A stretch of 64,000 nucleotides of DNA from Mariprofundus ferrinatatus. GTDB taxonomy: Bacteria > Pseudomonadota > Zetaproteobacteria > Mariprofundales > Mariprofundaceae. The notes beneath the pieces were generated by a model. That model worked only from the letters and a program-made list of their open reading frames with translations. It searched no databases and was not told the origin of the DNA. The position numbers were made by a program, and so were the translations under genes. The stretch covers positions 1,674,001 through 1,738,000 of the forward strand of contig NZ_CP018800.1 in the NCBI RefSeq assembly GCF_002795825.1. Direction: 5' to 3'. Shown piece by piece: positions 20,993 through 23,420 of the stretch; within the stretch, counting starts at the first letter, position 1; every line of letters starts with the position of its first letter.

Positions 20993-21892
20993 CTACTTGA
21001 GTGACTTCAAATAAGCAGCGATATCCTGCGCATCGCCACCACATTTGTTCTGTTTACTCATCTTGGTTTTTGCGCCGCTGTTTCCGGTCAGACTCTTAAT
21101 CGCAGATGGTGAGTCACAAACCCACAAAGCGAGTTTCTGCTCATCCCAGACAAATGTTGCTGCCTGAAGGTCGCTTCCGTATTTAAAACCGGGAGCCTTA
21201 CCGGCACTCCTGCCGTGAATGGCGAAGAGGTTTGGCCCCATCTTATCGGCCCCGCCGGAATCAAAGGTGTGACATGCCTTGCACTTGCCAACCTTTCCGG
21301 CACCTGCAGTGGCACTACCCGCACTTGCAGCTGCTGCCTTATCTGCTGCTGCCTTATCTGCTGCTGCCTTATCTGCTGCTGCCTTATCTGCTGCTGCCTT
21401 GTCTGCCGCCGCCTTATCTGCCGCTGCCTTGTCTGCCGCTGCCTTGTCTGCTGCTGCCTTATCTGCCGCTGCCTTATCTGCCGCTGCCTTATCTGCCGCT
21501 GCCTTGTCTGCTGCTGCCTTGTCTGCTGCTGCCTTGTCTGCCGCTGCCTTGTCTGCCGCTGCCTTATCTGCCGCTGCCTTGTCTGCTGCTGCCTTGTCTG
21601 CTGCTGCCTTGTCTGCTGCCTTATCTGCCGCCAGAGCATCGGTTTCAGCAGTGCTCGAATCGGCTGTTACGATCCCGGCTGTTTCAGCAGGAGAATCTGT
21701 ACCCGCCTCCCCCTCAACATCTATGGACAGTTCCTCTTCTGAGACCGCCCCCTCGGCGTCAGCTGAAACTTCTGAAGAGATCTCACTCTGAGTGGTAACC
21801 GCTGGTGCAGATGTTGTAGCCTGCTCCTTTTCACCTTTACAGCCGATTATCGCTATGGCTGCAACAATGCAAATTGTTAAAATATATCTCAT
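20993..21892 (-). CDS. Cytochrome c lipoprotein with Ala-Asp-Lys repeat linker
   Basis: 299 residues. An N-terminal lipobox (AIIGC, Cys18) predicts a lipid anchor. An acidic Ser/Glu-rich segment follows (20-85), then about 20 copies of Ala-Asp-Lys-Ala (roughly 90-190), then a class I cytochrome c domain with CKACH (heme attachment) and [11 protein letters not shown] carrying the likely axial Met. The head would be held off the membrane by a charged, probably helical or extended linker about 100 residues long. A periplasmic electron carrier is the obvious role; the partner is unknown. It is flanked by terminators, so it is a single-gene unit. Confidence 0.85.
21326..21630 (-). repeat. 15-bp coding tandem repeat (Ala-Ala-Asp-Lys-Ala)
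   Basis: GCCTT(A/G)TCTGC(T/C)GCT in plus sense recurs 20 times, 19 at exactly 15-base spacing and one 12 bases from its neighbour. Units differ only at synonymous positions (A/G and T/C), giving a mosaic of variants. Confidence 0.95.
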
Positions 21893-22486: not shown

Positions 22487-22518
22487 ATAAAGGGCCCGCG
22501 GTTTTCCGCGAGCCCTTT
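22487..22518 (-). terminator. Terminator after tRNA-Arg(ACG)
   Basis: Minus-sense GGGCTCGCGG-AAAA-CCGCGGGCCC stem followed by TTTATC, 6 bases past the tRNA CCA end. Confidence 0.8.
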
Positions 22519-22523
22519 CTATA

Positions 22524-22600
22524 TGGCGCTCCCTGAGCGATTCGAACGCCCGGCCTTCTGATTCGTAGTCAGATGCTCTATCCAGCTGAGCTAAGGGAGC
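22524..22600 (-). tRNA. tRNA-Arg(ACG)
   Basis: 77 nt with encoded CCA; anticodon loop CTACGAA; acceptor pairs GCTCCCT/AGGGAGC. Its first base, G at 22600, is also the last base of the TAG stop codon of the DUF2155 gene. Confidence 0.95.
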
Positions 22601-23109
22601 TAATTGTGTGCCTCTTGCGAAGCGGGCCGAAGCGTAATGCCTTTCAGCCAAACTTTCCATGCCGGATCGTCCATACCGAACAACTCCGGAAATTTCTGAT
22701 AGAGCCAGCCGCGGTAGTGAATCTCTCCATCCCGGCTGATCACTACGAAGGCGGCGGGATTATCCACATTTCCATCGTTCAGAAAAGCTCTATTTTCGGT
22801 CCTGAGACCCGTGGCCAAACCTAACAGCCGGATTTCCCAGCCTGAAAATTCTGCCACACCGCCTGAAGCAACCGTCGAACTGTGAAGACGGGCCGTGGCC
22901 TTTTCAAGCCAGACAAACTCCGCTTCACCACGCTGTAGAGCAGCCCATTCAGGCACTGCATCCGCAACCTGACCGGAATGAGGATCCTGCTTTTTCTCCA
23001 GCGGCAGCTGCCACTCGATCTGGTTAGCCTTTTCCTGCTCACAGCCCGTTAACAACAGGCCCATAGCGAAAACAAGAAGAAGCAGAACAACCGAGTTGAA
23101 ACGCCCCAT
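22600..23109 (-). CDS. DUF2155 lipoprotein encoded between two tRNAs
   Basis: 169 residues. A signal sequence ends in LLTGC (lipobox, Cys about 22). The C-terminal half resembles DUF2155: ARLHSSTVASGGVAEFSGWE, then IHYRGWLYQKFPELFGMDD and a final VWLKGITL, the family's Trp-(x)n-Pro-x-Leu pattern. Function is unknown. The ATG is only 8 bases past the CCA end of tRNA-Ser(GCU), with no Shine-Dalgarno, and the TAG stop shares its G with position 1 of tRNA-Arg. There is no room for its own promoter, so it must be cotranscribed with the tRNAs. Confidence 0.8.
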   Translation of the reverse strand: MGRFNSVVLLLLVFAMGLLLTGCEQEKANQIEWQLPLEKKQDPHSGQVADAVPEWAALQRGEAEFVWLEKATARLHSSTVASGGVAEFSGWEIRLLGLATGLRTENRAFLNDGNVDNPAAFVVISRDGEIHYRGWLYQKFPELFGMDDPAWKVWLKGITLRPASQEAHN

Positions 23110-23117
23110 CACACGAG

Positions 23118-23207
23118 TGGCGGAGAGAGAGGGATTCGAACCCTCGATAGGTTTTAGCCTATACACCCTTAGCAGGGGCGCGCTTTCGACCACTCAGCCA
23201 TCTCTCC
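23118..23207 (-). tRNA. tRNA-Ser(GCU)
   Basis: 90 nt, long variable arm, encoded CCA, anticodon loop CTGCTAA, acceptor GGAGAGA/TCTCTCC. Confidence 0.95.
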
Positions 23208-23256
23208 GTTGGACCATCTCGTCATCCTCATCGTAGCAATATCATGCCACGATAAC

Positions 23257-23345
23257 TGGCGGAAGGGGTGGGATTCGAACCCACGGTAGGTTTCCCTACG
23301 CCGGTTTTCAAGACCGGTACATTCGGCCAGCTCTGTCACCCTTCC
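23257..23345 (-). tRNA. tRNA-Ser(UGA)
   Basis: 89 nt, long variable arm, encoded CCA, anticodon loop CTTGAAA between CCGGT and ACCGG; 49 bases upstream of tRNA-Ser(GCU). Confidence 0.95.
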
Positions 23346-23392: not shown

Positions 23393-23420
23393 AAGATAGC
23401 ATGGAGTTGTGAGATGGCAA
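23393..23420 (-). promoter_or_regulatory. Probable promoter of the tRNA-Ser/Ser/DUF2155/tRNA-Arg unit
   Basis: TTGCCA (23415-23420), 16 bases, TATCTT (23393-23398). The leader then holds an inverted repeat CTTTCC-GCCC / GGGC-GGAAAG (about 23364-23395) before tRNA-Ser(UGA). Confidence 0.5.

Follow-up and report, generated by a model that had tools for sequence, protein, structure and literature searches.

A lipoprotein gene that ends inside the following tRNA gene in Mariprofundus ferrinatatus and its relatives

In Mariprofundus ferrinatatus, which belongs to a group of marine bacteria that oxidise iron, a gene for a DUF2155 lipoprotein lies directly between tRNA genes of the same strand, and the last base of its stop codon is the first nucleotide of tRNA-Arg(ACG). 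In many relatives the stop is placed further inside the same tRNA. The lipoprotein gene keeps a stop of its own in every genome in which its reading frame finds none in the tRNA, and a second, unrelated gene of the same class behaves likewise. From these sequence patterns, the lipoprotein is probably translated off a transcript shared with the tRNAs before tRNA-Arg is excised.

The window, i.e. the whole stretch of DNA analysed, is 64,000 nucleotides long. It belongs to a genome that was searched as one contig of 2,301,665 bases, and strain CP-8 is described as having a closed genome of 2.30 Mb (PMC5513912). The features of the locus, in order of reading and in window coordinates, are the following:

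23393 to 23420, minus strand: promoter-like site, TTGCCA and TATCTT separated by 16 nucleotides, with TG before the second hexamer (consensus match only)
23257 to 23345, minus strand: tRNA-Ser(UGA), with which the unit begins (ARAGORN)
23118 to 23207, minus strand: tRNA-Ser(GCU), with encoded CCA (ARAGORN)
23110 to 23117, minus strand: 8-nucleotide spacer CTCGTGTG from CCA to ATG, without Shine-Dalgarno (sequence)
22600 to 23109, minus strand: DUF2155 lipoprotein coding sequence, 169 residues (translation, profile match and lipobox)
22600 to 22602, minus strand: TAG stop, its G shared with tRNA-Arg as nucleotide 1 (sequence)
22591 to 22593, minus strand: back-up UAG in frame, formed by U8-A9-G10 of tRNA-Arg (sequence)
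22524 to 22600, minus strand: tRNA-Arg(ACG) (ARAGORN)
22489 to 22518, minus strand: strong intrinsic terminator, a 13-pair stem followed by ATCTTTTC (terminator scan)

The 5' junction reads ...CTCTCCGCCA / CTCGTGTG / ATG GGG CGT... and the 3' junction ...CAC AAT TA / G CTC CCT TAG CTC AG..., with slashes at the boundaries. The original prediction, that the ATG stands 8 bases after the CCA of tRNA-Ser(GCU), that the leader carries no Shine-Dalgarno and that the G of the TAG is position 1 of tRNA-Arg, agrees with the ARAGORN coordinates and the sequence on each point. An alternative GTG start occurs 5 nucleotides past the same CCA. At the other end, loss of the shared stop would add only three residues, the back-up UAG being three codons beyond the TAG. 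The claim that the unit leaves no room for an internal promoter or terminator also agrees with the sequence scan: on the minus strand no promoter-like site was found between the flanking tRNAs, the sole upstream one being that at 23420-23393, and the one terminator-like match between them is weak (7 pairs, 22842-22826). The genes are thus co-directional and closely spaced, with a strong terminator solely after the last one, as in a mixed tRNA-mRNA operon. A genome search recovered a single full identical copy of tRNA-Arg(ACG), and tRNA-Ser(GCU) and tRNA-Ser(UGA) have one copy each among the tRNAs recovered. Rfam matches to plastid families on the plus strand were rejected, as they are the antisense of the tRNAs. 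Elsewhere on the minus strand, the open reading frame at 20993-21892 is cytochrome c-like, and a long stretch of ADKAA-type repeats separates its signal peptide from its haem domain; the frames of the opposite strand are likewise open across the repeat.

The protein matches PF09923 (DUF2155) over residues 63-156 with 30.7 bits against a curated cut-off of 27, and the lipobox cysteine, C23, is invariant across 24 aligned zetaproteobacterial relatives. It is present in most members of the family, and a sister family contributes two more genomes; the named matches are to Mariprofundus, Ghiorsea and other Zetaproteobacteria. tRNA-Arg(ACG) lies directly 3' of the gene in 58 genomes, nearly all of them Mariprofundaceae and many of the relatives being metagenome bins, and tRNA-Ser(GCU) also precedes the gene in most of the 58. 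Judged from the genomes compared, the order of lipoprotein gene and tRNA-Arg is old. Chance or mis-annotation was discarded as an explanation, given that order and overlap recur among these genomes. Six relatives (L013, L014, L016, L048, L052 and L053) carry a second tRNA-Arg(ACG) copy roughly 24-175 nucleotides past the first. In other families of the phylum (L063, L064 and L066), distant DUF2155-like relatives are found 470-560 nucleotides before a tRNA-Ser(GGA), and in L064 a tRNA-Ser(GCU) is also upstream.

The stop codon lies inside tRNA-Arg in 33 of the 58 genomes: at nucleotides 21-23 in 23 genomes, at U8-A9-G10 in nine and at nucleotide 1 in the source genome. The remaining 25 genomes have their stop 0-30 nucleotides before the tRNA; the counts take in L029, although it lacks the motif used by the stop-position script. 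The gene order is conserved, and overlap in general is widespread in the family; the exact overlap of one base is unique to the source genome, the nearest relatives having overlaps of 23 (L002 and L003) or a gap of 0 (L004). Lost overlap and random spacing in relatives had been named as grounds for abandoning the prediction. This is partly what is seen on the 5' side, where distances run from -1 to more than 700 nucleotides; it is not what is seen on the 3' side, which stays between -23 and +30 nucleotides.

The tRNA-Arg sequence contains a stop in two reading frames and none in the third. A lipoprotein gene that enters the tRNA in the third frame has its own stop in 10 of 10 genomes, versus 15 of 48 in the other frames. 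Counted as overlap versus own stop, the figures are 0 versus 10 in the stop-less frame and 33 versus 15 in the others (Fisher 6e-5), the zero being partly definitional, as the alternative there is to read through the whole tRNA. Comparison with shuffled tails gives the same picture in another way: in the stop-less frame own stops are seen in 9 of 9 cases against 4.1 expected (P 5e-4), and the other frames show no excess (7 of 30 against 10.6 expected, and 8 of 18 against 7.7). Across the tree there are 17 changes of frame and 14 changes of overlap, gains and losses together; with relatedness taken into account the frame dependence has weaker support, independent pairs standing at 3-4 to 0 (p 0.125). 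In g14, three relatives in which tRNA-Arg no longer follows the gene all have their own stop. These patterns suggest that selection maintains an own stop only in the stop-less frame, because the tRNA can supply the stop in the other two. A stop inside the tRNA is treated by selection as a real one, which implies that translation normally reaches it, probably before RNase P cuts.

A second locus shows the same dependence. In the source genome, outside the window (G000:C1:504652-505590; L126, L168), the TAA stop of ispE is 21 nucleotides into tRNA-Gln(UUG), with prs downstream. Of 39 Zetaproteobacteria, 23 have their ispE stop within tRNA-Gln (10 at nucleotides 19-21 and 13 at U8-A9-G10), and each of the four that use the stop-less frame has a stop of its own. 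Among 20 Pseudomonadota outside the class that share the gene order, only one has this overlap. When stop-bearing frames alone are counted, ispE overlaps the tRNA in 23 of 35 cases in the class and in 1 of 12 outside it (p 7e-4), the latter figure assuming that the stop positions of tRNA-Gln are those of Zetaproteobacteria. With both loci pooled, overlap by frame is 0 of 14 versus 56 of 83 (p 1e-6, a statistic that ignores phylogeny). The sole genome of the panel from outside the class with ispE ending 21 nucleotides inside tRNA-Gln is G155 (L213). IspE is an essential enzyme of the MEP pathway; its tRNA-terminated message must therefore be properly translated. Among about 41 tRNAs of the source genome, these two are the only clear cases of a coding sequence on the same strand that stops inside a tRNA. 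Apparent overlaps at tRNA-Asn, tRNA-Thr and tRNA-Leu were set aside, their reading frames being short or unlikely. Separately, a pair of tRNA-Gly(GCC) and tRNA-Cys(GCA) occurs twice in tandem at L121 (G000:C1:1580092-1580601).

The sequence of events that these data suggest starts with one transcript, which would contain tRNA-Ser(UGA), tRNA-Ser(GCU), the lipoprotein message and tRNA-Arg(ACG) and end at the terminator. Initiation would occur without a Shine-Dalgarno near the 3' end of tRNA-Ser, probably once this tRNA has been released. The ribosome would then stop at a codon that belongs wholly or partly to tRNA-Arg, at nucleotide 1 in the source genome and at nucleotides 8-10 or 21-23 in relatives. 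A ribosome that moves near the polymerase would get to nucleotides 1-23 while the tRNA still lacked its 3' half. RNase P needs this half, and the first round or rounds of translation would finish normally. Subsequently, RNase P cleavage would end the life of the message and cap the protein yield per transcript, and late ribosomes on the cut message would be released by tmRNA as a fallback. The genome encodes tmRNA as well as RNases E and G; in a mixed tRNA-mRNA operon the single primary transcript would be cut by RNase P and RNase E. A promoter for tRNA-Arg within the coding sequence, or the premature end of most transcripts, may count against this order of events. Three fates had been offered for the message, and the one in which translation precedes RNase P is the best supported of them, the frame test and the independent ispE/tRNA-Gln case pointing to it.

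The strongest competing explanation is ordinary compaction. The locus would be a mixed tRNA-mRNA operon with an eroded spacer, and the overlap would have no consequence, the protein and the tRNA being made from separate transcript molecules or tRNA-Arg having a promoter within the coding sequence. This fits with an overlap that was gained or lost 14 times and with the variable spacing. The one-base overlap occurs in one genome, where a back-up UAG follows three codons later, and the frequency of own stops in frames 1 and 2 agrees with neutral tails. On the other hand, compaction leaves unexplained why the overlap occurs at two unrelated loci in the class versus 1 of 20 other Pseudomonadota at ispE-tRNA-Gln, and the promoter-like site that it could call upon within the coding sequence was not found. 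It is judged unlikely, with a real share of the probability nevertheless.

The start side is more variable. The g13 members and most Ghiorsea-type genomes (g9) start at CC[A/TG], where the A of the ATG is A76 of tRNA-Ser, and the signal peptide has a K or R at residue 3 or 4; L038 and L041 have ATA in place of this ATG. Five relatives (L022, L028, L030, L042 and L043) combine CC[A/TG] with a stop in tRNA-Arg and therefore overlap tRNAs at both ends. Wherever a tRNA-Ser is visible in g9, g4 or g13, its end lies 50 nucleotides from the lipobox cysteine; in part of g4, the script first picked a cysteine three codons before that of the lipobox. The leader is longer in several Mariprofundus relatives and in some of them carries a clear Shine-Dalgarno (L003, L004 and L006); a tight 5' side is therefore not required for function. 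A leaderless message, with its 5' end at the start codon or a few nucleotides from it, would arise only from an exact cut at the 3' end of tRNA-Ser. No RNase Z above the curated cut-off was found in four genomes, and an exact RNase Z cut as the source of the message 5' end was rejected, the matches resembling other proteins of the metallo-beta-lactamase fold.

In g2, g4, g5 and g11 no convincing start is seen past tRNA-Ser, and no stop interrupts the frame as far back as a GUG at nucleotide 15 of the tRNA; in the source genome, too, the frame from this GUG stays open into the lipoprotein gene. Translation in these four sets might begin at GUG15 (or at nucleotide 42) inside tRNA-Ser(GCU). Both termini of the protein would then be tRNA-encoded and each transcript would give either protein or tRNA-Ser. 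The nine g4 genomes share no common start position, and a K or R is missing from the stretch that separates the lipobox from the tRNA; past the tRNA, L049 offers no usable start, and in L056 just 12 residues precede the cysteine. All reading frames with less than 75 nucleotides to the cysteine are in phase with GUG15, even where the tRNA has 91 nucleotides, although this phase is forced wherever the ATG is CC[A/TG]. GUG15 is lost solely in spaced relatives (L006, L008, L010, L012-L014, L046 and L059), and the apicoplast overlap of orf105 and trnS (PMC4995348) offers a precedent. Against such a start, in g4 there is no protein-level constraint on the first four codons past the tRNA, most g4 genomes are suited by shifting UUG, GUG or CUG starts right behind the CCA, a folded tRNA should block initiation, and the source genome has a good ATG and a charged n-region. 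A start inside the tRNA is thus a doubtful proposition. The GGAG at nucleotides 1-4 of tRNA-Ser was considered as a Shine-Dalgarno for GUG15 and is uninformative, being part of the acceptor stem in all members. In nine Ghiorsea-type genomes (L022, L025, L026, L030, L032, L033, L041, L043 and L044) G7 of tRNA-Ser(GCU) stands opposite U66; it creates GAGGUG five nucleotides before GUG15, which may be chance.

A broader proposal sets translation in competition with tRNA maturation for one RNA. Each transcript would yield either lipoprotein or mature tRNA-Ser and tRNA-Arg, the supply of these tRNAs would be tied to lipoprotein synthesis, and the N-terminus would be tRNA-encoded in some genera. This is a tentative and rather improbable extension.

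The least probable reading by far, true punctuation, has both tRNAs excised first, leaving a message of about 0.5 kb that ends in UA and whose missing stop is handled by 3' A-addition or tmRNA; the anatomy of the locus and the presence of tmRNA fit, but own stops depend on frame, which means that the stops inside the tRNA are read and therefore that messages are not normally cut at nucleotide 1, where frame would not matter. The idea that polyadenylation restores the stop found no support. The DNA encodes a full stop, in most relatives the stop is complete and sits deep in the tRNA, and in 32 relatives A-addition could not restore the encoded one, since a cut at the tRNA would leave it well outside the message. 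The genome has a single gene of the PolyA_pol family, closest to CCA-adding enzymes, and rescue by PAP-type polyadenylation was rejected as unnecessary. Clearance of a nonstop message by tmRNA survives as a possible fallback, tmRNA being present, and is unlikely as the normal fate in view of the own stops (10 of 10 versus 15 of 48).

The comparison originally made with tRNA punctuation in animal mitochondria (Ojala et al. 1981, as cited in PMC10941002) is apt for the anatomy, a coding sequence that abuts or overlaps a tRNA without spacer. At the lipoprotein locus the spacing is -1 on the 3' side and, on the 5' side, 8 nucleotides in the source genome and -1 in relatives. The analogy fails for the stop itself: in mitochondria it is completed by A-addition, whereas here complete stops are read according to frame, with no sign of such completion. 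Furthermore, tRNAs mark cutting sites throughout the mitochondrial genome, whereas the source genome has only two junctions of this kind among about 41 tRNAs. Among bacteria, the secG-leuU operon of E. coli likewise has a protein gene directly before a co-directional tRNA; in K-12, however, secG ends 14 nucleotides before leuU, without overlap, whereas the lipoprotein gene has its stop inside the tRNA and another tRNA immediately upstream. The ispE-tRNA-Gln-prs order of Pseudomonadota forms the same kind of protein-tRNA junction, but outside Zetaproteobacteria ispE almost always ends 3-96 nucleotides before the tRNA, whereas many Zetaproteobacteria overlap. In the Plasmodium apicoplast, orf105 overlaps trnS (tRNA-Ser) by 24 bp at its 5' end, and its authors inferred that a transcript becomes tRNA or mRNA, not both (PMC4995348). 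That case concerns an organelle with long polycistronic transcripts and a 5' overlap; the present one concerns free-living bacteria and mainly a 3' overlap. The nearest parallel in anatomy is organelle punctuation, and for the exclusivity of tRNA and mRNA the nearest precedent is orf105/trnS. A literature search of partial coverage found no bacterial report of such stops inside tRNAs. The kind of arrangement is known from tRNA-mRNA operons and organelle tRNA punctuation; as far as that search reached, the bacterial variant is new.

Genes that overlap tRNAs are at risk of being shortened or lost in annotation pipelines. The natural variants, with three frames and a built-in control frame, make the order of translation and RNase P testable on one RNA. 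U8-A9-G10 is common in tRNAs and would be a general safety stop for ribosomes that enter tRNA genes. The chief interest lies in the recurrence: at two independent loci of free-living bacteria, and throughout a class, the stop codon of a gene can be supplied by the tRNA gene that comes after it.
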